Positions 43,501 through 62,980 of a stretch of 64,000 bases of DNA are shown here, piece after piece (the stretch's first letter is position 1; the number at the start of each line of letters is the position of its first letter). This stretch comes from an uncultured Aquimarina sp. GTDB taxonomy: Bacteria; Bacteroidota; Bacteroidia; Flavobacteriales; Flavobacteriaceae. The stretch is from assembly GCF_947492965.1 (NCBI RefSeq), contig NZ_CANLOZ010000003.1, forward strand, positions 434,001 to 498,000, written 5' to 3'. The notes beneath the pieces were generated by a model that did no database searches, was not told where the DNA came from, and saw only the letters and a list, made by a program, of their open reading frames with translations. Position numbers and translations under genes: made by a program.

Positions 43501-43512
43501 TGATAAATGTCA
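43501..43512. promoter_or_regulatory. CRP/FNR-type palindrome upstream of hpf/raiA-like gene
   Basis: TGATAAATGTCA; exactly 23 bp before TACTTTTG (43536-43543). Confidence 0.75.
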
Positions 43513-43560
43513 TATTTATCGGATTCTACAGGAATTACTTTTGGAGTATATTTTAAAGTA

Positions 43561-43869
43561 ATGCCTATGAAAACAAATATTCAGTTCGTGCAGATGCCAA
43601 CCAGTGAAGCTATGGAGGGTTATGTGCATGAAAAATTAGAAAAACTCTACAGGAAATACGATTGGATTATTAAATCCGATGTTTTTTTCAAAAAAGAAAA
43701 TGATCCCAAAGGAAAAGGGAAAATTTGTGATATAGAACTAAGTATTCCTGGTCCTAGAATTTATGCTACTTCCAATGAAAATAATTTTGAAATGGCATTT
43801 AAAGAAACTCTTAAGGATATCGAGACACTGCTTAAGAAAAAGAAGCAGGAGATGAAACCATATCATTAG
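43561..43869 (+). CDS. HPF/RaiA-family ribosome-associated protein
   Basis: MKTNIQFVQMPTSEAMEGYVHEKLEKLYRKYDWI..; start at 43561 or 43567, because the listed start 43507 lies inside the palindromic operator. Confidence 0.8.
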   Translation: MPMKTNIQFVQMPTSEAMEGYVHEKLEKLYRKYDWIIKSDVFFKKENDPKGKGKICDIELSIPGPRIYATSNENNFEMAFKETLKDIETLLKKKKQEMKPYH

Positions 43870-45060: not shown

Positions 45061-45948
45061 CTAGTTACCTATCATAGGAATGTCTTTATAATTCCTAATT
45101 AAATGCATAACCGTTGTTATTGGAATTTGGATACTATACGTTCCGGTGTAGGATGGACAAATAATGCAATCATCAAAATAGTAAGTGATAGTTTCGTCAT
45201 TGATCACAAAATTGTTTTTATAAGCATTAAAATCTGATTCGGAGATTTCCCAACAGTCGTAATACATTTCTCCAGAATGGATAGCTGCTTTTATTTCATC
45301 ATTCAGAATACTCAATAATTCTTTTTCAGAGCCTAGATCAAAGAAGTCATTGTAATATATAAATTGATGTGTATCCATTTCATAATTAAGACATTCAAAC
45401 ATATACGTAGAATGTTTCATACCCGAATAATAGTTTTCTTTATAAATAACTACACTGACTAAGTCGTTTTTGGCATTGTATATTTTGTAATCGATCAATC
45501 TTTTATCCATACATCGTCCTATTTGCATACTGTCGCAAAAGATTACGTTATCCTCCATGATTTCATTTTCAGTAGCTTCAATGTTTAAATAAGTTTCACT
45601 TATATAAGTGTTAAAGACAGCATACCCTTTATTAATGTCTTCGTTCAGATATGGATAGGTATAATCCAAAACATAATAATCTTCTGCCTTGTATAATTTT
45701 TTATTAATAACTAAATCTTGCAGCTGTGCTTTATCATCGGGAGCAGTAATTAATTTTTTTCTTTTGATTGCCTTCGTTTTTTCTTGGTGCATTTCTAGAT
45801 TTTCTTCAGAAAAAACAGCTATAGAATCGATATCATCACTATTTGTATCGTGATTAGTAGCTTTTGTATGAGAAGGTTCGGGATGAGAAGATGCTTTTGG
45901 TTTACAACCTATAGTACATATAATCAGGATAAGAATTAAATATTTCAT
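45061..45948 (-). CDS. DUF3298/RsiV-like lipoprotein
   Basis: Lipobox LIICTIGC; C-term domain FNTYISETYLNIEA..YYFDDCIICPSYTGTYSIQIPI. Confidence 0.65.
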   Translation of the reverse strand: MKYLILILIICTIGCKPKASSHPEPSHTKATNHDTNSDDIDSIAVFSEENLEMHQEKTKAIKRKKLITAPDDKAQLQDLVINKKLYKAEDYYVLDYTYPYLNEDINKGYAVFNTYISETYLNIEATENEIMEDNVIFCDSMQIGRCMDKRLIDYKIYNAKNDLVSVVIYKENYYSGMKHSTYMFECLNYEMDTHQFIYYNDFFDLGSEKELLSILNDEIKAAIHSGEMYYDCWEISESDFNAYKNNFVINDETITYYFDDCIICPSYTGTYSIQIPITTVMHLIRNYKDIPMIGN

Positions 45949-45997: not shown

Positions 45998-46009
45998 TGA
46001 CTTTTATCA
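45998..46009. promoter_or_regulatory. CRP/FNR-type palindrome upstream of 45948(-)
   Basis: TGACTTTTATCA; minus-strand TACATTGA at exactly 23 bp (45967-45974). Confidence 0.55.
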
Positions 46010-46096: not shown

Positions 46097-46381
46097 TTAA
46101 AAGAGAGTATTGATAAGAATAATTAATGAGTTTATTGCTAAGCTGGTGATCAAAAGATCTAATACCAATTTTGGTTTTTGTACGGTTAATATAGCTGCAT
46201 TATGAGCACTACAAATCGCTACACTTAGAAATACCGTAAACATTTCTACAGCGCCATGACCACCCATTAAAGTAGACATAATTGCTACAGAACCTAGACA
46301 GGTGGAAGCGATAATTGCTAAAGCAGAATATCCAATGTAATTTTCAGAAAAGTCGGTGTTTATTTTTGCATATAGTGTCAT
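46097..46381 (-). CDS. Small (94 aa) integral membrane protein, unknown function
   Basis: Two to three hydrophobic segments; own palindrome/-7 promoter upstream. Confidence 0.65.
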   Translation of the reverse strand: MTLYAKINTDFSENYIGYSALAIIASTCLGSVAIMSTLMGGHGAVEMFTVFLSVAICSAHNAAILTVQKPKLVLDLLITSLAINSLIILINTLF

Positions 46382-46436: not shown

Positions 46437-46448
46437 TGATATTTGTCA
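46437..46448. promoter_or_regulatory. CRP/FNR-type palindrome upstream of 46381(-)
   Basis: TGATATTTGTCA; minus-strand TACCTTTA at exactly 23 bp (46406-46413). Confidence 0.65.
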
Positions 46449-46465: not shown

Positions 46466-46870
46466 TTAGTTCTCGAAAAGCAATTTTAATTTCCCAAGCA
46501 TCATTAATTCAGATTTATTTTTTCCTGAGAAAGCACTGGCAATGGCATTACAGGTAGACCATACAAGTTCTTTGATCTGATTGGAAAACATGGAAGTGTG
46601 TTCCGTATAAAAGTTTTGGAACTCCTCAAAACAGTCTTCTGCATTAGGTGTTTCATAATCTAACCAATCAAAAACAATTTCTATTTGAAACGCTGCATCT
46701 ATTCCAAATTCATCTTCGAGATCATCTAGTGGCAACCATTCTGATTGTACAATCTTATGCAAAGATTCATATTCTGAAACGCGTACTACCTTGTCGGATG
46801 CAGCAATGGCATAAAATAGTTTACCTAAGCTTTGATACAATGCTACTCCAATATTTTGTGTTGTATTCAT
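46466..46870 (-). CDS. TerB-like helical protein (tentative)
   Basis: 134 aa all-helical; LGKLFYAIAASDKVVRVSEYESLHKIV resembles TerB repeats. Confidence 0.5.
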   Translation of the reverse strand: MNTTQNIGVALYQSLGKLFYAIAASDKVVRVSEYESLHKIVQSEWLPLDDLEDEFGIDAAFQIEIVFDWLDYETPNAEDCFEEFQNFYTEHTSMFSNQIKELVWSTCNAIASAFSGKNKSELMMLGKLKLLFEN

Positions 46871-46924: not shown

Positions 46925-46936
46925 TGACATAAATCA
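46925..46936. promoter_or_regulatory. CRP/FNR-type palindrome between divergent 46870(-) and 46995(+)
   Basis: TGACATAAATCA; minus-strand TACTTTTA at exactly 23 bp (46894-46901); plus-strand TAAATTTG at 18 bp. Confidence 0.6.
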
Positions 46937-46994: not shown

Positions 46995-48143
46995 ATGTCA
47001 TTAACCGGTGATAACACTTTTGATATTCTTTCTGAAGCGATTTCTGAAGGAGTAATTATTGTAGATGAAAATCAAATGATTGTTGCCACAAATAGTGCTT
47101 CAGAACAAATTTTTGGTTATGAAAAAGGAGAACTTAAAGGACAATCGCTAAATATTCTGATTCCACAACAATATAGAGGAAATCATGGAGGACATTTCCA
47201 AAGCTTTATGAAACATAGTCAAAAACGGCAAATGGGAATTGGGAGAGATATTCATGGAGTAAAAAAGAATGGAGATACCTTTCCTGTAGAAGCAGGATTA
47301 AGCCCATTTCAGATATATGATAAAACATTTGTCATGGCATTGGTAATGGATATCACAGAACGCAAAAACTATACAGAAAAACTGGAAAGCACTGTAAAAG
47401 AGCGAACCAAACAGTTACAGGAAGCTTTAGAGAAAGAAAAGGAACTAAATGAGTTAAAAACAAAGTTTTTATCATTAGTATCACACGAATTCAAAACCCC
47501 TTTAAGTGGCATACTAACTTCAACTACTTTGATCGGTAAATACCAAAAAACAGAACAACAAGAAAAGCGAGAAAAACACCTTCATACTATTAAAAGTAAG
47601 GTGAAGTACCTTGATAATATCTTAACAGATTTTTTGTCTATAGAAAGGCTAGATAGTGGAAAAGTAAATTATAAATTTTCCACTTTTCCTTTGAGCAAAG
47701 TAATTAACGAAGTAGTCTACGATGCCAATATGCTGCTAAAAGATGGACAAAAGATCAATTATCCTCAGGATATTGATGAATATACCCTAGAGTTTGATGA
47801 AAAAATATTGGAGTTAACACTAACCAATTTAATAGGAAATGCGATCAAATATTCTGGAGAAGGTACTACCATAGATTTGCAAGCTTATCCAGAAAAAGAG
47901 ACCTTCGTTTTTAAGGTAATTGATCAAGGTATCGGGATCCCAGAAAAAGAACAAAAGTTTATCTTTAACAGATATTTTAGAGCAGAAAATGCATTATTGG
48001 ATCAAGGGACTGGCATAGGACTAAATATTGTAAAAAGTCATATAGAAAATCTTGGAGGTTCTATTACTTTTTTAAGTGTAGAAAATCAAGGTACTACCTT
48101 TACTGTTACAATTCCTACAACTATAAAAGCAATACACAAATAA
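46995..48143 (+). CDS. PAS-domain sensor histidine kinase (FixL-like PAS)
   Basis: PAS LSEAISEGVIIVDENQ..LIPQQYRGNHGGHF..GIGRDIHGVKKNGDTFPVEAGLS; VSHEFKTPLSGILTSTTLI; GTGIGLNIVKSH; start moved from 46869 to 46995. Confidence 0.9.
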   Translation: MSLTGDNTFDILSEAISEGVIIVDENQMIVATNSASEQIFGYEKGELKGQSLNILIPQQYRGNHGGHFQSFMKHSQKRQMGIGRDIHGVKKNGDTFPVEAGLSPFQIYDKTFVMALVMDITERKNYTEKLESTVKERTKQLQEALEKEKELNELKTKFLSLVSHEFKTPLSGILTSTTLIGKYQKTEQQEKREKHLHTIKSKVKYLDNILTDFLSIERLDSGKVNYKFSTFPLSKVINEVVYDANMLLKDGQKINYPQDIDEYTLEFDEKILELTLTNLIGNAIKYSGEGTTIDLQAYPEKETFVFKVIDQGIGIPEKEQKFIFNRYFRAENALLDQGTGIGLNIVKSHIENLGGSITFLSVENQGTTFTVTIPTTIKAIHK

Positions 48144-48147
48144 CTAA

Positions 48148-49203
48148 ATGATGAGTAAGGTTTTATTAATAGAAGATGATACAGCATTACGAGAAAACAC
48201 AGCAGAATTACTGGAATTGTCTGACTATGATGTTACTACTGCACCTAATGGCAAAGTAGGTATAGAAAAAGCAAAAACCGAAAATCCAGACATTATTGTT
48301 TGTGATATTATGATGCCCGAAGTGGATGGATACGGAGTGCTAGAAGCACTATCATTACATAATCATACGCATCAGATTCCTTTTATCTTTTTGTCGGCAA
48401 AAACAGAACATAAAGAAATACGCAAAGGGATGGATCTGGGAGCTGATGATTACCTTACCAAACCTTTTGAAGAAGAAGAATTAATAAGTGCAATCGAAAG
48501 TCGCTTGGCTAAAGCAGCGATTTTAAAAAAGATGATGACAGGTAGTGCTGTTGCTTCAGAAGATCAAGAGGATACGCTGCGAAACTTACATGAATTGAAG
48601 AACTTTTTTGATGATCAAGGTGAGATTTCTAATTATAAAAAAGGAGAAGTTATATATAAAGAAGGAGATCATTCTAATAAAATTTATCTCATCCTAAAAG
48701 GAGTGGTAAAAACTCATAAAATGGATGAAAGTGGGAAGGAATTGATCACAACTTTGTACAAACCCGATGATTTTTTAGGATTTACTTCTTTCATGGATAA
48801 TATCCCGTATCAAGAATCTGCAACAGCAGTAGAGGAGACCGAACTCGCTGGAGTTTCTAAAAATGAACTAAAAGATATTTTAGCAAAAAGCAATAATATA
48901 TCCTTGGAACTAATGGAGCTCCTTACAGATAATCTTTCAGATATCAAGGAACAATTATTACAGATGGCCTATAGCTCTGTACGCAGAAAAACAGCACAAA
49001 CAATACTTCAGTTTGCAGAAATTTTAAATAAAAAAACTGAGGAAAACATTAAAATTTCACGAAACGATTTAGCTAGTGTGGCAGGAATAGCCACTGAAAG
49101 CTTGATACGTACACTGTCTAGTTTTAAAAAAGATGGTCTAATAGAAATTGAAGGCCGAAATATCAAGATATTAGATTTATCTGCATTACAATTGATGGAA
49201 TAA
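48148..49203 (+). CDS. Response regulator with CRP/FNR-type output (REC, cNMP-binding fold, HTH_Crp)
   Basis: LLIEDDTALREN..IIVCDIMMPEVDGYG..LSAKT..K; cNMP-like YKKGEVIYKEGDHSNKIYLILKGVVK; HTH ISRNDLASVAGIATESLIRTLSSFKKDGLIEIEG. Confidence 0.93.
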   Translation: MMSKVLLIEDDTALRENTAELLELSDYDVTTAPNGKVGIEKAKTENPDIIVCDIMMPEVDGYGVLEALSLHNHTHQIPFIFLSAKTEHKEIRKGMDLGADDYLTKPFEEEELISAIESRLAKAAILKKMMTGSAVASEDQEDTLRNLHELKNFFDDQGEISNYKKGEVIYKEGDHSNKIYLILKGVVKTHKMDESGKELITTLYKPDDFLGFTSFMDNIPYQESATAVEETELAGVSKNELKDILAKSNNISLELMELLTDNLSDIKEQLLQMAYSSVRRKTAQTILQFAEILNKKTEENIKISRNDLASVAGIATESLIRTLSSFKKDGLIEIEGRNIKILDLSALQLME

Positions 49204-49225: not shown

Positions 49226-49237
49226 TGACATTTGTCA
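49226..49237. promoter_or_regulatory. CRP/FNR-type palindrome upstream of USP-hemN
   Basis: TGACATTTGTCA (perfect palindrome TGACA-NN-TGTCA); TATATTTG at exactly 23 bp (49261-49268). Confidence 0.8.
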
Positions 49238-49291
49238 TATTTCGGGAGGTAGCGACCAGATATATTTGTATATAACTAGGTGGCGAAAGAC

Positions 49292-50125
49292 ATGAATAAT
49301 ATATTAATTCCGACTGATTTTTCTGATAATGCATGGAATGCTTTGGATTATGCCATTTCTTTTTTCAAGAAAGAGGAATGTTCTTTTTATTTACTTCATG
49401 TTTCCGCTTCCGAAATGGTGGCATCAGGAATCACTTCTGAAATTATCATGAATCCTTTTGAAGAAAAAACAACAGTATCAAAACGTTTCATAGATCTTCG
49501 AGAAAAAATCAAACAGTTTTCCACCAACCAAAAGCACCACTTTTTTACGCTTCATGAATATGGTTATTTAGTAGATACTATACGAAATATTGTATCCGAA
49601 AAGTCTATTGATTATATCGTCATGGGTACAAAAGGGGCGTCTGGATGGAAAGAAAGAACGATCGGAAGCAATACTGGAGATGTAATTACCAAAGTGAAGT
49701 GTCCGATTTTAGTAATACCCGAAAAAGCAACTTATATAAAACCAATAGAAATAGCTTTTCCTACAGACTATAATCTACAGTATAGAAGCAAAGTTTTAAA
49801 TACCATTAGAACTGTTGTTGCCACTAGTGATGCAAATTTTCGAATACTTCATATTGCCAAAAAAGAGAAAGAACTTTCTGAATTACAAAAAGGAAATAAA
49901 AACCTTCTTGATGATTATCTGGGAGATACTCTAAAGCACAGTTTTCATTTTCTTTCTACCGCTAATATCGAAGAAGGAGTTCAATCTTTTGTAGAAAGTA
50001 GTAATATAAATATGATAACGATGATTGCAAAAAATGTGAATTTTTTTCAGCGAATTTTATTTCGTCCTACAGTAGAAAAAATTAGTTATCACACCCATAT
50101 TCCTTTTTTTGTTTTACACGAATAA
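49292..50125 (+). CDS. Universal stress protein
   Basis: MNNILIPTDFSDNAWNALDYA; MGTKGASGWKERTIGSNTGDVITKVKCPILVIP. Confidence 0.92.
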   Translation: MNNILIPTDFSDNAWNALDYAISFFKKEECSFYLLHVSASEMVASGITSEIIMNPFEEKTTVSKRFIDLREKIKQFSTNQKHHFFTLHEYGYLVDTIRNIVSEKSIDYIVMGTKGASGWKERTIGSNTGDVITKVKCPILVIPEKATYIKPIEIAFPTDYNLQYRSKVLNTIRTVVATSDANFRILHIAKKEKELSELQKGNKNLLDDYLGDTLKHSFHFLSTANIEEGVQSFVESSNINMITMIAKNVNFFQRILFRPTVEKISYHTHIPFFVLHE

Positions 50126-50148: not shown

Positions 50149-51513
50149 ATGTGTACAAGTTTAATCACCAAGTATAATGTGCCAGGACCTAGGTATACAA
50201 GCTATCCAACAGTGCCCTATTGGAACAATGATATGTTTTCGCTTAAAAAGTGGACAGAATCAGTTCAAAAATCTTTTCATGTTACCAATAATTCTAAAGG
50301 AATCAGTATCTATATACATTTGCCATTTTGTGAGAGTTTGTGTACTTTCTGTGGCTGTCACAAACGAATTACCAAAAGACACGAAGTAGAAATACCTTAT
50401 ATTAATGCCGTTATAAAAGAATGGCAATTGTATGTTGACCTATTTGGAACCAGGCCAATAATTAAAGAACTACATTTAGGAGGAGGTACTCCTACATTCT
50501 TCTCTTCTGAAAATTTGCAATACTTACTACAAGGTATCTTTTCCTTTGCAAAAAAAGCAGAAGGATTCGAGTTTAGTTTTGAGGGGCATCCTAATAATAC
50601 AACACGAGAACAGTTACAGGTCTTATACGAAGTAGGTTTTAGAAGAGTAAGTTTTGGGGTGCAGGATTATGATGAAACGGTACAGAAGGCTATCCATCGT
50701 ATTCAGCCCTTTGAAAATGTGAAATATGTTACAGAAGTTGCCAGAGAAATTGGTTACACATCCATAAGTCATGATATCGTATTTGGATTGCCTTTTCAGA
50801 CAGAAGAAGCAATTATCAGAACAATCAAAAAGACAAAAGAATTACTGCCTGATCGATTGGCTTTTTATAGTTATGCACACGTTCCTTGGCAAAAAGGGAA
50901 CGGTCAACGTGGCTTTAAAGAATCAGATCTTCCTACAGCTGCTCAAAAAAGAAGACAATATGAAATAGGTAAAGAATTATTAACGAATGAAGGGTATATA
51001 GAAATTGGAATGGATCATTTTGCACTCAAAAGTGATGCACTTTATACATCCAAAATGGAAGGAGATATGCATCGTAATTTTATGGGATATACCATTTCTA
51101 ATACCAAATTGATGATTGGTTTGGGCGCTTCTTCCATTAGTGATAGTTGGTATGGTTTTGCTCAAAATGTAAAAGGTGTTGAAGCTTATCAGAACTTAGT
51201 TCATGAAGGAATCATACCCATTTATAGAGGTCATATGTTAACGAAAGAAGATGAAATCATCAGAAGGCATATACTGAATTTGATGTGTCATTTTGAAACA
51301 GATTGGAGTATAGATAATCTTCATTTTGATGAATTAGCAGATGTATCTGATCGATTAGAAGAAATGGAAAGTGATGGATTAGTAGAAGTGACAAATCATA
51401 ATATAAGAATTACCAAAAAAGGACAACCTTTTGTTCGTAATATTTGCATGGCATTTGATTTAAGATTGCAGCGCAATAGACCAGAAACGCAATTGTTTTC
51501 AATGACAATCTAG
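50149..51513 (+). CDS. hemN: Oxygen-independent coproporphyrinogen III oxidase
   Basis: YNVPGPRYTSYPTVPYW, IYIHLPFCESLCTFCGCHKRIT (radical SAM CxxxCxxC), LHLGGGTPTFFS. Confidence 0.96.
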   Translation: MCTSLITKYNVPGPRYTSYPTVPYWNNDMFSLKKWTESVQKSFHVTNNSKGISIYIHLPFCESLCTFCGCHKRITKRHEVEIPYINAVIKEWQLYVDLFGTRPIIKELHLGGGTPTFFSSENLQYLLQGIFSFAKKAEGFEFSFEGHPNNTTREQLQVLYEVGFRRVSFGVQDYDETVQKAIHRIQPFENVKYVTEVAREIGYTSISHDIVFGLPFQTEEAIIRTIKKTKELLPDRLAFYSYAHVPWQKGNGQRGFKESDLPTAAQKRRQYEIGKELLTNEGYIEIGMDHFALKSDALYTSKMEGDMHRNFMGYTISNTKLMIGLGASSISDSWYGFAQNVKGVEAYQNLVHEGIIPIYRGHMLTKEDEIIRRHILNLMCHFETDWSIDNLHFDELADVSDRLEEMESDGLVEVTNHNIRITKKGQPFVRNICMAFDLRLQRNRPETQLFSMTI

Positions 51514-51573: not shown

Positions 51574-51606
51574 AACCCGAATTATATACCGTATGATTCG
51601 GGTTTA
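51574..51606. terminator. Terminator-like hairpin between convergent hemN and cbb3 operon
   Basis: aacccgaat..attcgggtt. Confidence 0.65.
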
Positions 51607-52308
51607 ATGACATTCAAAATTGGTAGAGACAATAGGGGATGCTTGTTTTGGAGAAACATAAGGTATTCCTAGTCCCATTCCTCTTAAAATAAAAAGTAAT
51701 CCCATTACAATGATAAATATAGGGATCATCTTTTGTATCCGTTGTCTTATCCAAGTTCCTTTGAATATGTTGTTTGCAAAGACTATTGCAGTCATCAATG
51801 GAATTGTACCCAATCCAAAAAGAATCATATATAAACTTGCTTGTAATATGTTTGAAGAAGTGATAGCACCAAAAACAGCCATATACACAAGTCCACAAGG
51901 TAAAAAACCGTTTAAAAAACCGATGGTTAAAAAGGTATCTGTAGTTTTCTTTTGCAAATTATGACCAAGAGCAGCTTTTACTTTTGTAATTGCATAATAA
52001 ATTGGTCGGGTAAAAGTTTTTTTCTTGGCTTTAATTGCTGGTACTAGGACTATAAGAATCATTAAAATTCCGATGACGATCGATAATCCTTGTTGTAGAT
52101 TAAAAATATGAAAACTTTTCCCCAGTAAACCAAAGAAAAAACCTATCATTCCATACGCTAATAGCCTACCAGAATGATATATTAAAACCTGAAATAGTTT
52201 TTTAGCACTATTGGAATTATGTACTGGGAGCATAAATGCGATTGGCCCGCACATTCCTATACAATGAAAACTGCCTAAAAAGCCTAATATGAAAGCAGAT
52301 ATTAACAT
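51604..52308 (-). CDS. Sulfite exporter TauE/SafE-family (CcoH2/YfiT-like) membrane protein
   Basis: MLISAFILGFLGSFHCIGMCGPIAFML, FLNGFLPCGLVYMAVFGAI; cbb3 operon context. Confidence 0.85.
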   Translation of the reverse strand: MLISAFILGFLGSFHCIGMCGPIAFMLPVHNSNSAKKLFQVLIYHSGRLLAYGMIGFFFGLLGKSFHIFNLQQGLSIVIGILMILIVLVPAIKAKKKTFTRPIYYAITKVKAALGHNLQKKTTDTFLTIGFLNGFLPCGLVYMAVFGAITSSNILQASLYMILFGLGTIPLMTAIVFANNIFKGTWIRQRIQKMIPIFIIVMGLLFILRGMGLGIPYVSPKQASPIVSTNFECH

Positions 52309-52755
52309 CTAATATGTAAATGATTTTTTATATAAGTAATGGATATCTTCATACTTCCAATCTATTGTAATTTTCCATTTTCCTTCGATCATATTTTCGT
52401 CTGGAATTATTATGGTATTTCTTTCAAGATTAATTGGAATAGAAAAATCTAGTTGCTTATTTGATGGACGATATAATGAAATTACTCCACTGATTTTTTG
52501 AAATTCCTTTTCTTCAGGAAATGTGATGGACAGACCTATAGGTGTTTTTTTAATAAAAACGTCATTAGGCAAAGCTCTTGCATTTTTCTCAGCGTCAATT
52601 TCCTTCTGAAAAGCTAGTTCTTTTTTGTAATATTCCTCGGTTACGAGGTCGTGCTCATATTTCTTGTTGGTATTCATACGTACTACGAAGTACATAATAA
52701 AGGTTATGAATCCTATAAATACCAATACGATTGCGGTTCCCCAGTTTATTTTCAT
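52309..52755 (-). CDS. ccoH: FixH/CcoH family protein
   Basis: N-term TM, TEEYYKKELAFQKEIDAEKNA; position after ccoG. Confidence 0.85.
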   Translation of the reverse strand: MKINWGTAIVLVFIGFITFIMYFVVRMNTNKKYEHDLVTEEYYKKELAFQKEIDAEKNARALPNDVFIKKTPIGLSITFPEEKEFQKISGVISLYRPSNKQLDFSIPINLERNTIIIPDENMIEGKWKITIDWKYEDIHYLYKKSFTY

Positions 52756-52774
52756 AGTCTTAGGTTTTTAATTT

Positions 52775-54196
52775 CTATCTATAACTTCTTGGCCCCAAAA
52801 AAGCCGCATAAGTTGTTTCTATTAGTGTATCATTGCTATAAACTCCTATTTTTAGTTTGTCTTTATCCCCACTTAGCACAGATGCATGAACCTCAATAAA
52901 CAATGTTCCTTCGGCCAGTCCTTGTCTAGGCACAACAAAGTTTTTATGTGTTACTTGTTCAATTTTTCCTTGATGTGATAACAACTCAAAATGTACATCT
53001 ACAATGTCCTCAGTGGTTTTGTTTACCAACTTATACGTAAATACATTACTAATCATATTATTTTCCTTTCTTTCATAAAGTTGACCAGGTAATCGGAGGA
53101 TATTGGCTTCTACGTCATTTCTTAAGAATAACATTCCAGTAAGTACACCTGTCAGAATCAATAATACACCGGTATATCCTTTTAATCGGGAAGTAAATTC
53201 GAATTTCGCTTTTTTTGCAATATTCTCCTCACTTGCATATCGAATAAGTCCTTTAGGTAGGTTCACGCTTTCCATCATATGGTCACAAGCATCTATACAG
53301 GCAGTACAGTTAACACATTCTAGCTGGGTGCCGTTACGAATATCAATACCGGTAGGACATACATGTACACATTGAAAACAATCTATACAATCTCCTTTTC
53401 CAGTACTTTGGCGGTCTTCATTTTTTTTAAACTTGGCTCTGCCTGTCTCTTTTTCTCCACGTTTGTAGTCGTACGCAACTACAATCGATTTTGAGTCTAA
53501 TAATACTCCCTGTAATCGACCATAAGGACAAGCTATAATACATACTTGTTCTCTAAACCATGCAAAAACAAAATAGAAAACAGCCGTAAAAATCAGTAAT
53601 GAAATTAGAGTGCTAACATGTTTTAAAGGGCCATCAATGATATATTGTAATAATTGATCACTTCCTATAAGATAAGCCAAAAATACATTGGCGATTAAGA
53701 AGGAAATGATAAAAAATATAATCCACTTTATTATTCTTTTTCTGATTTTTTCTGCATTCCAGACTTGCTTATCAAGTCGGATTTGTTTTCCTCGATCACC
53801 TTCTATCCAGTATTCGATTCTTCTAAAAACCATTTCCATAAAAATCGTTTGTGGACATGCCCAACCGCAGAATAATCTCCCGAAAGCCACAGTGAATAGG
53901 GTGATGAATATAACTCCTATAATCATGGAAATCACAAACAAATGAAAATCCTGAGGCCAAAAAGGAGCTCCAAAAATATTGAATTGTCTTTCCAGGACAT
54001 TAAAAAGCAGGAATTGATTTCCGTTGATCTTAATAAAAGGAGCAGAAAACAGAAAGATTAATAATCCGTAACTTACCCACTTTCTATATTTATAGAATTT
54101 TCCACTTGGTTTTTTTGGGTATACCCATGCTCGTTTTCCTTCTGCATTTACAGTAGCAATCGAATCTCTGAATTTTTCATTTGTTGGTGTTTCCAA
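52775..54196 (-). CDS. ccoG: Cytochrome c oxidase accessory protein CcoG (4Fe-4S)
   Basis: GRLFCGWACPQTIFMEMVFRRIEYWIEG; CIDCFQCVHVCPTGIDIRNGTQLECVNCTACIDACD. Confidence 0.96.
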   Translation of the reverse strand: METPTNEKFRDSIATVNAEGKRAWVYPKKPSGKFYKYRKWVSYGLLIFLFSAPFIKINGNQFLLFNVLERQFNIFGAPFWPQDFHLFVISMIIGVIFITLFTVAFGRLFCGWACPQTIFMEMVFRRIEYWIEGDRGKQIRLDKQVWNAEKIRKRIIKWIIFFIISFLIANVFLAYLIGSDQLLQYIIDGPLKHVSTLISLLIFTAVFYFVFAWFREQVCIIACPYGRLQGVLLDSKSIVVAYDYKRGEKETGRAKFKKNEDRQSTGKGDCIDCFQCVHVCPTGIDIRNGTQLECVNCTACIDACDHMMESVNLPKGLIRYASEENIAKKAKFEFTSRLKGYTGVLLILTGVLTGMLFLRNDVEANILRLPGQLYERKENNMISNVFTYKLVNKTTEDIVDVHFELLSHQGKIEQVTHKNFVVPRQGLAEGTLFIEVHASVLSGDKDKLKIGVYSNDTLIETTYAAFLGPRSYR

Positions 54197-54212
54197 GAGT
54201 TTTGATTTTCAA

Positions 54213-55169
54213 TTATTCATTCAGTGCGACAGAGGTTGAATCTGATACTAATTCTTGTGTTTCTTCCTTTGATTGTTCTTTTTTTGGAGTATCAGGATCT
54301 ATCCATAGTTCTCCTTGTGCTTCTTTCGGTTCGGCAGGAGTTGTTCCTTCTAAGGTGATGATATAACTAGCTACCTGAGCCATTTCTGCAGGTTTTAATG
54401 TTTGTTTCCAGGCCACCATTCCTTTACCATCTCTACCTCCTTCAGAAATGGTACGAAATATGTTCTTAATTCCACCACCCAAAATCCAATATCTGTCAGT
54501 TAAATTTGGACCAATTCCACCTCCGCCATCAGCGTTGTGACAGGCAACGCAATTCGCTGTGAAAATAGCTTTTCCTGCACTCATGTCCGAAGCATCAGTT
54601 AATAGTGTAACCGTATTTACATCGACTAAATCTTTGGCGGTTTTTTTGTATTCTTCGATCGCAATTTTAGCTTCAGCCATTTCTGTTTCATACTCTTCTC
54701 TTTGGGTGTAGTCATTAAACACATGGAAACGTATCATATAGATCATGCCGAATACGATGGTAGCATAAAATCCATATACCCACCAAGGAGGAAGATTATT
54801 ATCTAATTCTTTAATGCCATCGTAATTATGATCTAGGATGATTTCATCCTCTTGTGCTACCGGTTTACTATCAAGAAGCTTTAGATAGATATCTTTTAAC
54901 CATTTGAATTGTTTTTCTTTCTTAATCTTTTGAGCAAGTACATAACGTTCTTGGGCATCTGGTTTTAGAGATAGGAATAGTATATTTTGTAATGCAGCTA
55001 AACTAATTTCTATCGCAATAGCAAATAACGCAATCATACCTAATACTAACCAGCTAAGAGGTTCTTCAATAAATGCTGAATTGCCGTTAGTTTCAACTGT
55101 AAGTTCTATTAAAATATACGCAATGAGTAAAAAGGTACATACTCTTATATATGATGCGGTTGTTTTCAT
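54213..55169 (-). CDS. ccoP: cbb3-type cytochrome c oxidase subunit III
   Basis: YDGIKELDNNLPPWWVYGFY; CVACHNADGGGGIGPNLTDRYWI. Confidence 0.94.
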   Translation of the reverse strand: MKTTASYIRVCTFLLIAYILIELTVETNGNSAFIEEPLSWLVLGMIALFAIAIEISLAALQNILFLSLKPDAQERYVLAQKIKKEKQFKWLKDIYLKLLDSKPVAQEDEIILDHNYDGIKELDNNLPPWWVYGFYATIVFGMIYMIRFHVFNDYTQREEYETEMAEAKIAIEEYKKTAKDLVDVNTVTLLTDASDMSAGKAIFTANCVACHNADGGGGIGPNLTDRYWILGGGIKNIFRTISEGGRDGKGMVAWKQTLKPAEMAQVASYIITLEGTTPAEPKEAQGELWIDPDTPKKEQSKEETQELVSDSTSVALNE

Positions 55170-55357
55170 AATGTTAGGTCTTTATCAATTTCTGTTTCTA
55201 ATGGTATATGACTTACTTCTTTGATGTGTTCTTTTTTTGCAGAAATAACCCACCAAAATAATGCGGTAAAGAAGATGAAAAATATCAGGAGAGAAATCAT
55301 AGGATAGATTTCTATTCCCTCGATACTTTCCATATGACCTTTTATAAATTTTAGCAT
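55166..55357 (-). CDS. ccoQ: CcoQ-like small membrane subunit
   Basis: 63 aa, one TM, between ccoP and ccoNO. Confidence 0.75.
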   Translation of the reverse strand: MLKFIKGHMESIEGIEIYPMISLLIFFIFFTALFWWVISAKKEHIKEVSHIPLETEIDKDLTL

Positions 55358-55361
55358 AGCT

Positions 55362-57569
55362 TTATTCTTTAGTTTGTACTATCGTTTCTTCGTCTTGATT
55401 TTTAACTTTAATATCTGTTCCTAATCTTTGAATGTAGGCGATAAGTGCTACTACTTCTCGATGTCTCATCTCTATGAAGTCTAACCCATTTTCTTCGGCA
55501 TATTTCTTATCGGCTTCATAGGTCTTTGCAAAATCAGGATCGGTATATAGATTTTTTTCAATTTGTATAGCTTGCTCGTCCATCCATTCTTGTGCTCTTG
55601 CAATCTCCTCTGGAGTATAGGGAACTCCTAGGGTTACCATAGCTTCCATTTTTATCTCTGTTTGAGATCTGTCGAGCTTATTTTTTATCAACCATTTGTA
55701 GCTAGGCATGATAGAACCAGAAGAGGTGCTTTGTGGATCGTAGAAATGATTAAGATGCCAATTATCAGAATATTTTCCTCCTATCCTCATAAGATCTGGT
55801 CCTGTACGTTTACTACCCCATAAGAAAGGATGATCATATATATATTCTCCTGCTTTTGAATATTCTCCATAGCGTTCTACCTCACTTCTAAAAGGCCGAA
55901 TCATCTGAGAGTGACAAGAAACACAACTCTCTCTAATATAAAGATCACGTCCTTCTAACTCAAGAGGCGTATAAGGTTTCACGCTTGTGATAGTAGGAAT
56001 ATTAGAATCAACCATTAATGTGGGAATGATTTGTACGGCTCCTCCAATAAGAATAGCGATAGTTGCAAAAATGGTAAGCTTTACGGGTCTTCTTTCTAAC
56101 CAGGTATGGTACCCTTCTTTAGCTGTTCTGTGTCGTGTTACCTTAGTAAGAGGAGCTGCTTCGGCAAGTTCGTCTGCAACTTTGCTTCCACTTTTCACTG
56201 TTTTCACAACATTATAGAGCATAATGAATATTCCTAATATGTAGATGCTTCCACCAATAGCACGCATCCAATACATCGGTATAATTTCATTTACGGTTTC
56301 TAGAAAATTTCCATATACCAGGCTACCATCAGGATTAAATTGCTTCCACATAGAAGCTTGAACAAATCCTGCTACATACATAGGTAATGCATACATGATA
56401 ATACCAAGAGTACCTAACCAAAAGTGAGCATTTGCCAATCCTGTAGACCATAATTTGGTTTTGAAGAGTTTAGGAATTAACCAATATGCCATTCCAAAAG
56501 TTAAAAATCCATTCCATGCTAATGCGCCCACATGAACGTGAGCGATCACCCAATCACTAAAATGGGCAATGGCATTTACATTTTTAAGAGATAACATTGG
56601 ACCTTCGAAAGTCGCCATTCCGTAACCAGTGATGGCAACTACCATAAATTTAAGTACAGGATCTGTACGGACTTTGTCCCAGGCTCCACGAAGAGTTAAT
56701 AAACCATTGATCATTCCACCCCATGATGGAGCGATAAGCATTATAGAAAAAGCAACTCCAAGATTTTGTGCCCAATCTGGTAACGAAGAGTACAACAAAT
56801 GATGAGGACCAGCCCAGATATATATGAAAATAAGGGACCAAAAATGTACTATCGATAATCGATATGAATAAATAGGTCTATTGGCAGCTTTAGGAATGAA
56901 ATAATACATTAATCCTAAGAATGGAGTAGTAAGGAAAAAAGCCACTGCATTATGACCATACCACCATTGTACCAATGCGTCTTGTACTCCTGCATACACT
57001 GAGTAACTTTTTAATGCACTTACAGGAAGTTCCAGACTATTAAAAATATGGAGTACTGCCACAGTTACAACGGTAGCGATGTAAAACCAAATGGCGACAT
57101 ATAAATGACGTTGCCTTCTTTTTAATATTGTTCCAATAAGGTTCCAACCAAAAACAACCCATATTACTGCTATAGCAATATCAAAAGGCCATTCGAGTTC
57201 TGCATATTCTTTGGATGTTGTAAAACCTAAAGGAAGCGTAATGGCAGCACCAACAATAATTAATTGCCATCCCCAGAAGTTAATATTACTGAGAATATCG
57301 CTGAAAATTCTTGCTTTTAATAAACGTTGTGTAGAATAATATACCCCTGCAAAAATGGCATTTCCTACGAAGGCGAAGATTACAGCATTGGTGTGTAGCG
57401 GTCTTAGTCGACCAAAACTCAACCATGATATACCATCGGTAAGGTTAGGGAATAAAAACATGAACGCCAGAAGTAGACCAACTGACATTCCTACAATACC
57501 CCATAGCATCGTAGCGTACAAGAATTTTTTTACGATTTTATTATCGTAATAGAACTGTTCCATTTCCAT
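55362..57569 (-). CDS. ccoNO: cbb3 oxidase fused subunits I and II (CcoN-CcoO)
   Basis: CcoN HTNAVIFAFVGNAIFAG..WWYGHNAVAFFLTTPFLG..; C-terminal CcoO CVSCHSQMIRPFRSEVERYGEYSKAGEYIYDHPFLWGSKRTGPDL. Confidence 0.96.
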   Translation of the reverse strand: MEMEQFYYDNKIVKKFLYATMLWGIVGMSVGLLLAFMFLFPNLTDGISWLSFGRLRPLHTNAVIFAFVGNAIFAGVYYSTQRLLKARIFSDILSNINFWGWQLIIVGAAITLPLGFTTSKEYAELEWPFDIAIAVIWVVFGWNLIGTILKRRQRHLYVAIWFYIATVVTVAVLHIFNSLELPVSALKSYSVYAGVQDALVQWWYGHNAVAFFLTTPFLGLMYYFIPKAANRPIYSYRLSIVHFWSLIFIYIWAGPHHLLYSSLPDWAQNLGVAFSIMLIAPSWGGMINGLLTLRGAWDKVRTDPVLKFMVVAITGYGMATFEGPMLSLKNVNAIAHFSDWVIAHVHVGALAWNGFLTFGMAYWLIPKLFKTKLWSTGLANAHFWLGTLGIIMYALPMYVAGFVQASMWKQFNPDGSLVYGNFLETVNEIIPMYWMRAIGGSIYILGIFIMLYNVVKTVKSGSKVADELAEAAPLTKVTRHRTAKEGYHTWLERRPVKLTIFATIAILIGGAVQIIPTLMVDSNIPTITSVKPYTPLELEGRDLYIRESCVSCHSQMIRPFRSEVERYGEYSKAGEYIYDHPFLWGSKRTGPDLMRIGGKYSDNWHLNHFYDPQSTSSGSIMPSYKWLIKNKLDRSQTEIKMEAMVTLGVPYTPEEIARAQEWMDEQAIQIEKNLYTDPDFAKTYEADKKYAEENGLDFIEMRHREVVALIAYIQRLGTDIKVKNQDEETIVQTKE

Positions 57570-57570
57570 G

Positions 57571-57765
57571 TTAAGATTGTTTGGTTTTAGAAGGTGTTGA
57601 AGATTTTTCTTGGCCTTCTTTTACGAGTTCGTCTTCAAAAAGCATGCGAATAGATGGCGTATAAACGTCATCGTATTGTCCATTTTTTATAGAAAATATA
57701 AAAGCAATAAAAAAGACAATCGCTACTAGAATACTAATCGTTAAGAGCACATAAATAACACCCAT
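57571..57765 (-). CDS. ccoS: cbb3 oxidase assembly protein CcoS
   Basis: MGVIYVLLTISILVAIVFFIAFIFSIKNGQYDD; start 57765 preferred over 57786 because -7 TACTTTTG overlaps 57784-57791. Confidence 0.88.
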   Translation of the reverse strand: MGVIYVLLTISILVAIVFFIAFIFSIKNGQYDDVYTPSIRMLFEDELVKEGQEKSSTPSKTKQS

Positions 57766-57814
57766 ACTTATTTTATTATGCATCAAAAGTATGTGCCAAC
57801 CTTTTCTTAAAAAA

Positions 57815-57826
57815 TGACATTTATCA
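57815..57826. promoter_or_regulatory. CRP/FNR-type palindrome upstream of the ccoS-ccoNO operon
   Basis: TGACATTTATCA; minus-strand TACTTTTG at exactly 23 bp (57784-57791). Confidence 0.8.
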
Positions 57827-57931: not shown

Positions 57932-58531
57932 TCAAAGGAATCTATATGAACTGGTTTTACACCAATTATAATCTTGTTGGAGTGTATATTGAATAACCTT
58001 ATTTGCTTTAGTGAATGCGTCGTATTTTATAAATTCCATATGAATAGGCTTAAGAATATAACCACCCCAATAGGGTGGTTTTGGAATTTCTTTGTTTTGG
58101 AATTTCTGTTCCAATTGTTCCATACCTCTGTCCAGAATTGTTCGAGATGGTATAATAGTACTTTGTTCAGAAACCCAAGCTGCAAGTTTGCTACCTCTAG
58201 GACGAGATTCGAAATATCCTTCTGATAAATTTTCAGGTATTTTTTCGGTATGGCCGTAAATATGTACTTCTCTTTGCGATTTATTCCAGTTAAACAATAG
58301 TGAAGCTCTATTGTTGTTTGCAAGCGCTTTTCCTTTTTCACTCTTATAATTGGTGAAAAAGATAAAACCTTCCCAAGTAAATCTCTTTAATAAAACAATC
58401 CTGGTTTTTGGAAAACCATCTATTCCAATGGTAGAAAGTTGCATAGCATTTATTTCATCTCCAGTATCCAAGTTTTTTATTTCATAAAACCACTGTTGGA
58501 AGTGTTCTATGGGATTATAATGCTTCGACAT
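57932..58531 (-). CDS. Pyridoxamine 5'-phosphate oxidase-like flavoprotein with divergent C-terminus
   Basis: TRIVLLKRF..FFTNYKSEKGKAL..RASLLFNW..RQVHIYG-like REVHIYGHTEKI; SRPRGSKLAAWVSEQS; overlaps the 3' end of the P-type ATPase gene. Confidence 0.8.
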   Translation of the reverse strand: MSKHYNPIEHFQQWFYEIKNLDTGDEINAMQLSTIGIDGFPKTRIVLLKRFTWEGFIFFTNYKSEKGKALANNNRASLLFNWNKSQREVHIYGHTEKIPENLSEGYFESRPRGSKLAAWVSEQSTIIPSRTILDRGMEQLEQKFQNKEIPKPPYWGGYILKPIHMEFIKYDAFTKANKVIQYTLQQDYNWCKTSSYRFL

Positions 58532-60923
58532 CTCCTTTCTTTTTATGGTATAGCTTAAAACTCATAAAATTTGTAAGTACCGTCACATAAATTACTATAG
58601 AAATTGAACTTAATGGCATTAGAATGGCAGCTACGATAGGAGATAATTGACCTATTACAGCAAAATACAAGCCAATTATATTATAGAAAAATGATATAAT
58701 AAAGCTTGATTTAATTACTTGGATTGTCTTTTTTGAAATATGTAAAAGATCACTGATTTTTTCAAATTCTGATGCATCTAAAATTGCATCACAAGCTGGA
58801 GAAAATACATTCACATTTTCTGATATAGCGATTCCTACGTTACTTTGTGCCAGTGCTCCGGCATCATTAAGACCATCTCCAATCATCATTACGTTTCGAT
58901 GGTTTTCCTGCAAGTTCTTGATATGGTTAAGTTTGTCTTTTGGTTTTTGATTAAAAAGTAATGAAGTCGTTTTAGGAAGTATTTTCTGTAAATAAGATCT
59001 TTCTCCCTGATTATCACCAGAGATTATTGATACTTCGTAAGTAATAGATAACTTTTTAAATAATTTTTCGAGTCCTTTTCGATATTGATTGTAAAAAATG
59101 AAATGGCCTCGGTAATTATCATTTGTGCTTATATGTACGGAAGTGTTAAGCTGTTTTTCGTTATCAGGATTTCCTACAAAATTCGTAGAACCAATTTTAA
59201 TGGAGTTTTCGGCATGTTTTCCTTCTATACCACTACCGATATACTCTTGATATTCATCTAAAGTCATAATTTCATATGCTGCAAGTGTATCGTATAAAGA
59301 TCTGCTTAACGGATGGTTTGAAGCCCGTAGAGTGTTTTTTAATAATGCTTCTTCGGTATGTGATAAAGGTTGCCCATGATATTCAATATTATTTTTTTTA
59401 TGTACTGTAATCGTACCTGTTTTATCAAACAGAATGGTATCTGCATTTGCCATTTGCTCGATAACGTCAGCATTTTTGAGATAAAATTTATGCTTACCGA
59501 AGAACCTTAGTACATTTCCTAGTGCAAATGGTCTGGCTAATGCTAATGCGCAAGGGCATGCAATGATTAAGACTGCTGTAAAAACATTCATGGCTTTGGA
59601 TGCATCCTTAAATAACCAGTAACTAGTTGCAATAACTGCGATACATAAAATGATTATGGTAAAATATTGGCTTACCATATCGGTAAGATTGGTAAAAGAA
59701 TCGGCTTTGTTCTTTTTAAAAATATCATTACTCCATAATTGAGTTAGATAACTTTGTTCTACGGATTTGAGCGCTTCAATTTCTATTGCTCCGTTCATCT
59801 GTTTTCCTCCTGCAAAAAGTTTATCTCCAGATCGTTTAGAAACAGGCTCACTTTCTCCAGTAACAAAACTGTAATCTATCCTTGCATTACCATTAATTAA
59901 TATGCTGTCTACAGGAATTAATTCCTCATTTCTAATTAATAAACGATCTCCTTCTTTAATTTCATATACCTGAATGTTCTCTTCTAGTTTCTGGTCTGAA
60001 GAAATTCTGGTGACTGCAATGGGAAAATAGGATTTATAATCTCTTTCGAAGGATAAGAAAGTATATGTCTTTTGTTGAAAAAACTTCCCTAATAATAGGA
60101 AGAATATCAAACCGGTGAGGCTATCAAAAAAACCGGTGCCTAGATCAAATATTATTTCTACAGTACTTCTAATGAAGAGTACTAAAATACCTAAGGCAAT
60201 AGGTACATCGATATTTAATATGTTATTTCGTAACCCTTTATAGGCAGAAATTAGATATTCCTGACCCGCATAAAAAACAACAGGTATCGAAAAAGCAAAC
60301 ATTAACCATCTAAAAGCATGTTTATATTGTTCTAACCAATATTCTGACACTTCAAAATATTCAGGGAAAGATAAAAACATCACGTTTCCAAAAGCAAAAC
60401 CTGCAACTCCTAATTTATAGAATAAACTTCGGTTAATATGTTGATTGCCCTTAGTATAATCCTCTAAGCTAATATAAGGCTCATATCCTATGGAGTTAAG
60501 TAAAGTAACAACTTCTTTTAGGGTAGTTTCTGAAGTATCAAAAGTTACTCTTACCGTTTTTTTCGGAAAATTTACTTGTGATGCAGAAATCGATGTATGA
60601 AGCTTATGCAAATTTTCTAAAATCCAAATACAGGAACTACAATGTATATGAGGGATATATAAGGTAACTATCTGGATATTTTCATTGCTGAACTCGATTA
60701 ATCTTTCAATAATATCAGGATTATCGAGATAATCGTACTTTCCTTCGAGCTCTTTGGGAATGGCTCCAGGAGTAGATTGTAAATCATAATAGCAGGATAA
60801 ATTATTGGTGGAAAAAATTTCATACACTGTTTTGCATCCATTACAGCAAAAAGTTTTATGATCAAATTTCACAATTGTTTTATCACATTCATTGCCGCAG
60901 TGAAAACATTTTGTAGCTATCAT
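58515..60923 (-). CDS. ccoI: Heavy-metal (copper) P-type ATPase for cbb3 assembly, CcoI/FixI
   Basis: CFHCGNECD..CCNGCKTVYEIF; HCSSCIWILENL; IACPCALALARPFA; FDKTGTIT; GDGLNDAGALAQSNVGIAI. Confidence 0.93.
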   Translation of the reverse strand: MIATKCFHCGNECDKTIVKFDHKTFCCNGCKTVYEIFSTNNLSCYYDLQSTPGAIPKELEGKYDYLDNPDIIERLIEFSNENIQIVTLYIPHIHCSSCIWILENLHKLHTSISASQVNFPKKTVRVTFDTSETTLKEVVTLLNSIGYEPYISLEDYTKGNQHINRSLFYKLGVAGFAFGNVMFLSFPEYFEVSEYWLEQYKHAFRWLMFAFSIPVVFYAGQEYLISAYKGLRNNILNIDVPIALGILVLFIRSTVEIIFDLGTGFFDSLTGLIFFLLLGKFFQQKTYTFLSFERDYKSYFPIAVTRISSDQKLEENIQVYEIKEGDRLLIRNEELIPVDSILINGNARIDYSFVTGESEPVSKRSGDKLFAGGKQMNGAIEIEALKSVEQSYLTQLWSNDIFKKNKADSFTNLTDMVSQYFTIIILCIAVIATSYWLFKDASKAMNVFTAVLIIACPCALALARPFALGNVLRFFGKHKFYLKNADVIEQMANADTILFDKTGTITVHKKNNIEYHGQPLSHTEEALLKNTLRASNHPLSRSLYDTLAAYEIMTLDEYQEYIGSGIEGKHAENSIKIGSTNFVGNPDNEKQLNTSVHISTNDNYRGHFIFYNQYRKGLEKLFKKLSITYEVSIISGDNQGERSYLQKILPKTTSLLFNQKPKDKLNHIKNLQENHRNVMMIGDGLNDAGALAQSNVGIAISENVNVFSPACDAILDASEFEKISDLLHISKKTIQVIKSSFIISFFYNIIGLYFAVIGQLSPIVAAILMPLSSISIVIYVTVLTNFMSFKLYHKKKGDVEAL

Positions 60924-60971
60924 ATCTATTAGATTTTGTACAAAAATCATAAAGACTACGTTCGTATCATA

Positions 60972-60983
60972 TGACAAAAATCA
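60972..60983. promoter_or_regulatory. Bidirectional CRP/FNR-type palindrome between ccoI(-) and USP(+)
   Basis: TGACAAAAATCA; 23 bp to TAGTTTTG on plus (61007-61014) and 23 bp to GATTTTTG on minus (60941-60948). Confidence 0.8.
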
Positions 60984-61039: not shown

Positions 61040-61966
61040 ATGAAAAAGATTTTGCTACTTACCGATTTCTCAGAAAACTCCTGGAATGCTATTGATTATG
61101 CTACAGAACTTTTTAAGGAAGAATCTTGTACATTTTATATAGTAAATGCTTACAGCAAAATTATTTATGAAGCTATTCATCTCTCCGATCATCCATCTGA
61201 GCGTAGTGTAGAAAATACAGTACAATTAGATGTTTTAACAAACCTGAAACACATAAAGAAAAGCTTGGAGTATGCGAATGTTAATAAGAACCATTATTTT
61301 GAAATCATTGCAGTTTTTGGCACGATCACTGAAGTAACATCAGAAATAGTAGCATCCAAGAAAATAGATCTTATCGTTATGGGGACTAAGGGAACTACTG
61401 CTGCAAAAGAAGTATTTATAGGTAGCAATGCTGTACGAATCATAAAAGCTATCAAAAAATGTCCGGTTGTAGTCATACCATCTGGTTTTTCCTTGATAAA
61501 CCATCCTTTGCATATAGCATTTGCAACAGAATTTACACATTTTTATAGTAAGGAAGAATTAACACCTTTAATAGACCTAGCTATACATAAAAGTGCGAAA
61601 ATCGATATTGTACACATTCCGAAGCAAGCAGGTTCTTTATCAGAGGAACAAAAATTTAATTCAGAAATATTACAAGAATATTTTAATGCTATAGATAGTT
61701 ATGTGCATACCATAAACATGGGTGATTCTATAGCTTCAACTTTACAAGGTTTTGCAGAAAAATCGAATGTAGATCTATTAGCAATGTTGAATTATAGATA
61801 CAGTTTTTTAGAAAAATTAACCAGAGAACCTGTCATTAAAAATATAGCGTTTTATTCAAAAATTCCTTTTATGATACTACCAGAAATAGGAATGAGTACT
61901 TCATTCTCTAAAATAGGTAAAGACGTATCTAAAAGATATCAAAATCTGATAAAAGATACGGTATAA
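61040..61966 (+). CDS. Universal stress protein
   Basis: MKKILLLTDFSENSWNAIDYA; MGTKGTTAAKEVFIGSNAVRIIKAIKKCPVVVIP. Confidence 0.92.
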   Translation: MKKILLLTDFSENSWNAIDYATELFKEESCTFYIVNAYSKIIYEAIHLSDHPSERSVENTVQLDVLTNLKHIKKSLEYANVNKNHYFEIIAVFGTITEVTSEIVASKKIDLIVMGTKGTTAAKEVFIGSNAVRIIKAIKKCPVVVIPSGFSLINHPLHIAFATEFTHFYSKEELTPLIDLAIHKSAKIDIVHIPKQAGSLSEEQKFNSEILQEYFNAIDSYVHTINMGDSIASTLQGFAEKSNVDLLAMLNYRYSFLEKLTREPVIKNIAFYSKIPFMILPEIGMSTSFSKIGKDVSKRYQNLIKDTV

Positions 61967-61967
61967 C

Positions 61968-61979
61968 TGATATTAGTCA
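61968..61979. promoter_or_regulatory. CRP/FNR-type palindrome upstream of USP
   Basis: TGATATTAGTCA; TAGTTTTG at exactly 23 bp (62003-62010). Confidence 0.78.
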
Positions 61980-62032
61980 TAGTTCATCTCCTAGACAGGA
62001 CTTAGTTTTGGATATAATAAAAACTATTTATC

Positions 62033-62881
62033 ATGAGAAAGGTTCTAATCCCCACAGATTTTTCAGAGAATTCTTTAAACGCATTAAAATATGCTGTTGA
62101 GGTTTTCAAATATGAACAGTGTGATTTCTTTATACTACATGCCTATGCGGACGAAGTATATGATCAGAATGCTCATATGGCTCGAGAACTTTTTAATGAA
62201 ATAAAAGACAATGTCTATCAAAACTCGGAAAAAGAATTGACCAAAATAGAGGAGATATTACAACAGATTTCTCCGAACCCAAGACATTCTTATAAAACAC
62301 TATCTAAGTTTGGTCAGTTGGTAGATGAGAGTAATGAAATTATAGAGGAAGAAAATGTAGATATTGTTGTCATGGGAACCAAAGGAAAAACGGATAACAG
62401 CAAAATAACCTTTGGAAGTAATACACTACAGGTAATTAAATACGTTAAAAGTCCTGTTTTGGTAATTCCTAATGGTTGTACATATACGTCTCCGAAGAGT
62501 ATCTTATTTCCATCAGATTATCAATTACCATACAAAAGAAGAGAGTTGAAGTTATTGTATACAATGGCTAGAAGTTTTAGATCTAAAATTAACTTTTTAT
62601 GGGTATCTACTAATGATAAGTTGTCCATACGACAAGAAGACAATAAAGAGTTTTTAGAAACAAGTTTATCAGGTGTTGAACTAGAATCTCATAGGATCTC
62701 GTCAAAGAGTTTGACTATAGCAATTAATGAATTTATCGAGCATAAAGGAATAGATTTTTTGGTGATGGTAAATTCTAGACATTCCTACATGGAGAACATA
62801 TTGTATACATCTACAATAGATACAATAGGATTAGAGATCAAAATTCCATTTTTGGTGATGCAAAATGTACCAAGAATCTAA
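62033..62881 (+). CDS. Universal stress protein
   Basis: MRKVLIPTDFSENSLNALKYA; MGTKGKTDNSKITFGSNTLQVIKYVKSPVLVIP. Confidence 0.92.
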   Translation: MRKVLIPTDFSENSLNALKYAVEVFKYEQCDFFILHAYADEVYDQNAHMARELFNEIKDNVYQNSEKELTKIEEILQQISPNPRHSYKTLSKFGQLVDESNEIIEEENVDIVVMGTKGKTDNSKITFGSNTLQVIKYVKSPVLVIPNGCTYTSPKSILFPSDYQLPYKRRELKLLYTMARSFRSKINFLWVSTNDKLSIRQEDNKEFLETSLSGVELESHRISSKSLTIAINEFIEHKGIDFLVMVNSRHSYMENILYTSTIDTIGLEIKIPFLVMQNVPRI

Positions 62882-62980
62882 CTTCTAAAAATAACAAGGA
62901 AAAATAGACCACAAGAATTATGAGAAGGTATAATGGTTTGTCATGATGTGGTGATTTAGTAAACAATAAATGTTGAAAAG

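Follow-up and report, generated by a model that had tools for sequence, protein, structure and literature searches.

A FixL-like kinase and a receiver-CRP fusion regulator as a candidate low-oxygen control system in Aquimarina

The window, a stretch of 64,000 nucleotides (C3:434001-498000) from the 5.54 Mb genome (40 contigs) of an uncultured Aquimarina sp., carries a histidine kinase gene and a response regulator gene among genes for ribosome hibernation, universal stress proteins (Usp) and a cbb3 oxidase. The regulator joins a receiver to a CRP-type output half (REC-CRP). A palindromic box recurs in front of several of these genes, and "in register" below refers to its fixed distance from the -7 element. 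The features are:

43501-43512, + strand: box before hpf, in register
43507-43869, + strand: hpf, ribosome hibernation factor (Ribosomal_S30AE), start probably at 43561 or 43567
45998-46009, - strand: box before the DUF3298 gene (45061-45948), with an imperfect -7 element, TACATTGA
46437-46448, - strand: box before the gene of a 94-aa membrane protein (46097-46381), in register
46466-46870, - strand: gene of a conserved 134-aa protein, divergent from the kinase gene; in 61 of 69 relatives its box comes with a complete -7 element in register
46925-46936, no strand assigned: palindromic box between divergent gene and kinase gene, in class II register towards 46870, not 46995
46995-48143, + strand: PAS histidine kinase, FixL-like; H64 and R84 match H200 and R220 of BjFixL; phospho-acceptor H164
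48148-49203, + strand: response regulator REC-CRP; receiver D53/S83/K105, cNMP-type fold without cAMP contacts, HTH_Crp helix ATESLIR
49226-49237, + strand: box before the usp gene 3' of the regulator, with TATATTTG at 49261-49268 in register
49292-50125, + strand: Usp gene, predicted target, ATG start at 49292
50149-51513, + strand: hemN, oxygen-independent coproporphyrinogen III oxidase, without a box of its own
51604-57569, - strand: cbb3 oxidase cluster (ccoN, ccoP, ccoG, ccoH, DsbD_2-type protein)
57574-57774, - strand: ccoS (FixS), first gene of the cbb3 cluster
57815-57826, - strand: box before ccoS-ccoN, in register
58515-60977, - strand: fixI/ccoI-type heavy-metal P-type ATPase
60972-60983, no strand assigned: divergent box, in register with usp 61040 (TAGTTTTG) and, at one mismatch, with fixI
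61040-63832, + strand: three usp genes (61040-61966, 62033-62881, 62981-63832)
61968-61979, + strand: box before usp 62033, in register

An earlier sequence-only reading of this DNA had proposed a PAS kinase and a receiver-CRP fusion in the two adjacent frames; both open reading frames are where it placed them, and the Pfam matches agree: PAS_9 (4.5e-12), HisKA (1.8e-12) and HATPase_c (2.2e-23) in the kinase, and Response_reg (6e-30), cNMP_binding (2.8e-20) and HTH_Crp_2 (1.7e-13) in the regulator. Conservation was counted over the proteins of the window together with those of the fetched Flavobacteriaceae loci, 81 regulators and 80 kinases in all. The receiver residues D53, S83 and K105, to which that reading had also drawn attention, and H164 of the kinase are essentially invariant; D10 and D11 are likewise kept among REC-CRP orthologues, as in a two-component receiver. 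The kinase gene lies immediately 5' of the regulator gene in 79 of 80 fetched loci. The evidence supports a two-component pair in which the kinase would pass its phosphate to the regulator. The recognition helix (T316-E317-S318-L319-I320-R321) is also essentially invariant, and its glutamate and arginine, correctly recognized earlier as spaced as in CRP and FNR, are present in all 81 regulators (E317, R321). The pair is usually followed by usp genes and then, in most Aquimarina loci, by hemN and the cco cluster. The nearest relatives of the regulator are nearly all from Aquimarina, relatives at 36-47% identity extend to several further families of its class, and 57 of 393 genomes across the phylum gave a match. 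Many genomes contain REC-CRP paralogues, at about 42-46% identity, and in one locus (L076) a second REC-CRP, diverged and with a kinase of its own, lies close to the main pair.

The output half appears to have lost the switches known from its family, in keeping with the earlier view of a Crp/Fnr output controlled neither by a ligand nor by an Fe-S cluster. No Fe-S cysteines are conserved in the CRP part of REC-CRP, which thus lacks the cysteine ligands of FNR, and the sole invariant cysteine, C52, sits in the receiver beside D53. In alignment with CRP of M. tuberculosis, the cAMP-contacting Glu and Arg are replaced by F212 and Y221 (each kept in 79 of 81), and the Ser/Thr positions after the pocket Arg by Q222/E223, so that no cAMP binding is expected. 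Because both the Fe-S cysteines and the cAMP contacts are missing, phosphorylation is the likely switch of REC-CRP. A structure prediction, suggested earlier for the interface of receiver and cNMP fold, yielded a regulator model of pLDDT 77.9, but its pTM of 0.50 and weak domain-domain confidence do not fix the arrangement of the domains. A fold search with this model returned only single CRP-type proteins as top matches.

The window contains 13 copies of the palindrome TGAYNNNNRTCA where 5.6 would be expected, and none of 100 shuffles reached 13. Among the 80 fetched loci, a box lies within 200 bp 3' of the regulator gene in 76 of 79, and upstream of the divergent gene in 69/69, of hpf in 20/22 and of usp 62033 in 45/47; two control regions inside genes have one in 2/79 and 0/79. 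The distance from the box centre to the first T of TAnnTTTG, the Bacteroidota -7 box, is 29.5 bp in 180 cases, with 0.6 expected. All 73 boxed usp promoters 3' of the regulator have the full registered -7 element, for which the random rate is 0.3%, as do all 20 boxed hpf promoters and those of three other genes (21/21, 34/34 and 27/27). At mapped start sites of Flavobacterium psychrophilum, TAnnTTTG spans -12 to -5 (PMC9723704), and the 29.5 bp spacing would therefore centre the box at -41.5. We conclude that the box is a real promoter element and, by the geometry of the F. psychrophilum start sites, should occupy the position of a class II activator. The palindrome regulon that had been proposed is thus conserved across loci and registered to the promoter, and stands more firmly than could be seen from the window.

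A genome-wide search for the composite of box, 23 bases and TAnnTTTR found 13 perfect copies, nine of them within 29.5 kb of the 5.54 Mb (C3:477501-507036), where they precede hpf, five usp genes, two small uncharacterised genes and ccoS-ccoN. In the window and the 14.5 kb downstream, each of the 13 composites with at most one mismatch precedes a start codon, at 37-69 bp counted from the centre of the box; at ccoS, the closest ATG lies upstream of the likely start. The predicted targets are hpf, the DUF3298 protein, two small uncharacterised proteins, six usp genes, ccoS-ccoN, fixI and Hsp20; hemN is probably expressed by read-through from usp 49292. The Hsp20 gene (L252:3645-4088) lies just beyond the window and has a near-perfect box and -7 element, so that the regulon extends past the window. 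A wide regulon across the genome was rejected, as most strict boxes outside the cluster sit inside genes. The FNR-type sequence TTGAY..RTCAA was dropped as a definition of the box; it occurs at 91 places genome-wide, and the local sites have A or C before TGA. One composite with TTGAC..GTCAA flanks was seen on another contig (G000:C5:383722-383764, L232) upstream of a ribB-like gene; it may be due to chance or be the site of another Crp protein.

The palindrome reported between the kinase operon and the divergent gene is present (46925-46936). The description of that gene as TerB-like was not borne out: the product of 46466-46870 matches no Pfam family at E <= 0.001, and matches up to 0.5 are noise only. 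Together with the product of 46097-46381, likewise conserved and with a box in class II register, it is likely to be an uncharacterised member of a low-oxygen regulon. Autoregulation of the kinase operon, which had been called likely, is weakly supported. The box required for it exists, but its class II register faces the divergent gene; towards the kinase, the first TAnnTTTG in the window is 24.5 bp away, 5 bp off register, and class II autoregulation was consequently rejected for the window. Across 86 boxes between kinase and divergent gene, the full registered -7 element is found towards the divergent gene in 63 and towards the kinase in 21, and class II autoregulation may hold in this minority of relatives.

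The likely signal emerges from the kinase PAS domain, which the earlier reading had recognized as PAS without noting its likeness to FixL. Among solved structures its best relative is FixL (1.6e-16), followed by DosP, and both proteins sense oxygen through heme. H64, at the position of BjFixL H200, is found in 80 of 80 kinases amid variable neighbours, and R84, at that of R220, in 76 of 80. Of the 15 PAS_9 domains of the genome that we aligned, that of the kinase alone combines the His and Arg of FixL with the same length of loop. The kinase does not reach the NCBIfam FixL equivalog cutoff (89 bits vs 850), and its pocket departs from BjFixL at I215 (Q), I216 (M) and L236 (A). From these residues the domain likely binds heme, in a pocket partly different from that of FixL, and probably senses oxygen. 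The predicted targets agree with the response of F. psychrophilum, in which oxygen limitation induces the cbb3 oxidase and heme synthesis, with no regulator named (PMC9723704).

An unlikely but serious alternative keeps the same architecture and regulon and gives the kinase another cue, such as redox state or a metabolite, or mere tuning, in place of heme-based oxygen sensing. The partly unlike pocket would fit such a role, as would the two or three PAS domains of several orthologous kinases; moreover, the His and Arg pair of FixL recurs in PAS domains that are not known to bind heme. Against it, H64 never varies while its neighbours do, and none of the genome's other PAS_9 domains that we compared has it. 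The targets, too, are low-oxygen genes, and elsewhere the same boxes are accompanied by an FNR-like protein with Fe-S-type cysteines.

Those FNR-like proteins bear on the question of which protein reads the box. Among 151 Flavobacteriaceae genomes, 78 encode a full-length REC-CRP and 100 an FNR-like protein (two of these weak matches). Every one of the 125 ccoN-positive genomes has at least one of them (29 REC-CRP only, 51 FNR-like only, 45 both), and the 19 genomes with neither all lack ccoN (Fisher 1e-18, ignoring phylogeny). The idea that the box requires REC-CRP was rejected, since 16 of 17 genomes without REC-CRP retain the ccoN box. It is also present in 11 of the 12 REC-CRP-only ccoN-positive genomes examined, and its register is identical in the two groups (offset 35 in 16/16 and 11/11 boxes, respectively). 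Wherever the whole locus was read, the gene of the FNR-like protein adjoins fixI divergently, with boxes in between. Its product has the helix ATES-x-IR, which ATESLIR of REC-CRP matches. The output domains of the two group together against the six other Crp proteins of the source genome (95/88), a weak statement on distance, given the long branches of those six, and one silent on the order of descent. The earlier proposal that the pair controls the palindrome regulon is therefore supported as to the two-component pair and the regulon, but REC-CRP may not be the sole reader, as in many relatives an FNR-like protein with the same helix goes with the same boxes.

In the source genome the FNR-like protein is absent and REC-CRP has the only ATES-x-IR helix, which makes it, judged by sequence, the leading candidate for reading the boxes. 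Another Crp/Fnr protein of the genome had been named as the possible rival claimant; none of the FNR-like kind is present here, but L090 and L093 are formal rivals, their helices (SREVISR and SREVVSR) having the Glu-x3-Arg spacing. We consider it improbable that the boxes are read by a protein of this type, with REC-CRP lying next to them and acting on different targets. Both have a CRP-like Arg before the Glu, group apart from REC-CRP and the FNR-like proteins and are encoded on other contigs, whereas ATES-x-IR is common to the two proteins that account for every ccoN-positive genome. Least probable of all is a REC-CRP that acts at the boxes as repressor or anti-activator, for although its coexistence with the FNR-like protein in 45 genomes makes competition for boxes conceivable, REC-CRP stands alone in 29 ccoN-positive genomes, the boxes found in 11 of the 12 examined all keep the exact -41.5 register, and -41.5 is the standard position of an activator.

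A close functional parallel to a REC-CRP activator under a FixL-like kinase is the FixL-FixJ-FixK system of rhizobia and Caulobacter, where the Crp/Fnr activator FixK coexists with the Fe-S protein FnrN on near-identical boxes (PMC4999443). Shared with it are the FixL-type PAS kinase, a Crp/Fnr activator without Fe-S cysteines, cco and hemN targets (PMC4999443) and the coexistence with an Fe-S FNR-type protein. The boxes read TTGANCNNGATCAA in the rhizobial system and MTGAY..RTCAK here. The transcriptional cascade runs there through two distinct proteins, FixJ, with a LuxR-type output, and FixK, whereas here receiver and Crp/Fnr output form one protein. REC-CRP has cNMP_binding and HTH_Crp_2 in place of the LuxR/GerE-type output of FixJ, and its fusion to a receiver sets it apart from FixK, which is standalone, sensorless and under transcriptional control by FixJ. 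With FNR it shares the CRP fold, the Glu-x3-Arg helix and, in its predicted binding, the TGA-N6-TCA core and class II position, but not the Fe-S cysteines; helix and boxes are common to REC-CRP and the flavobacterial FNR-like proteins. With CRP it shares fold and HTH, but not the cAMP-contacting Glu and Arg of the pocket. In Mycobacterium tuberculosis, the hypoxia system DosS/DosT-DosR consists of GAF heme kinases and a NarL/LuxR-type regulator, and the DosR regulon includes usp, small heat-shock protein and ribosome-hibernation genes. The predicted heme-sensor kinase logic and regulon content are alike, while the output domain is not homologous. The REC-CRP system would work like FixLJ-K, and REC-CRP belongs to none of the kinds FixJ, FixK, FNR and CRP as these are defined.

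We put at roughly 0.62 the probability that a FixL-like kinase drives an FNR-derived, phosphorylation-switched low-oxygen activator. The kinase would be a soluble FixL-like sensor of low oxygen, most likely a heme-PAS protein, that phosphorylates the receiver of the adjacent regulator. As the FNR-related output half has no sensor of its own, phosphorylation of D53 would stand in for a ligand and switch the DNA-binding dimer. Once active, the dimer would bind MTGAY-N4-RTCAK boxes whose centre lies at -41.5 and, in the manner of a class II activator, turn on a local low-oxygen and dormancy regulon comprising the cbb3 oxidase, the metal pump, hpf, several Usp, Hsp20 and, by read-through, hemN. 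The rhizobial cascade from FixL through FixJ to FixK would thereby shrink to a pair, FixJ and FixK being combined in one protein. The odds seem to us even that an activator of the FNR family gave up its Fe-S oxygen sensor, retained its boxes and came, by way of a receiver, under the control of a FixL-like heme kinase, so that two oxygen sensors would be interchangeable at the same class II promoters within one family.

The literature searched, which covered few subscription papers, contained no description of a REC-CRP fusion or its regulon and no paper naming a low-oxygen regulator of Flavobacteriaceae. New here is that relatives without REC-CRP keep the box and its register and carry an FNR-like protein with the same recognition helix. 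Flavobacteriaceae are a major part of marine and freshwater communities, and the system offers a concrete candidate for their low-oxygen regulator, together with a defined box, set at a constant distance within its promoters, and a small number of targets. Genomes with the FNR-like protein only, the phosphorylation-driven fusion only, or both, and with boxes equally placed, amount to a natural rewiring experiment. How phosphorylation switches a CRP fold would be directly accessible to experiment.

The standalone FNR-like proteins share invariant C4, C7, C53, C59 and C106 (33/33). Those at L142-L147 have an N-terminal CxxC and no cysteine at the usual third FNR spacing, and C29, C53, C59 and C106 may serve as alternative ligands. 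Immediately before TGA, 9 of 11 ccoN boxes from genomes with REC-CRP only carry C, compared with 2 of 16 from FNR-only genomes (p = 9e-4, ignoring phylogeny), which points to a possible shift in box specificity between the two groups of genomes. In the upstream regions L096-L140, most FNR-only ccoN boxes have A at this base.
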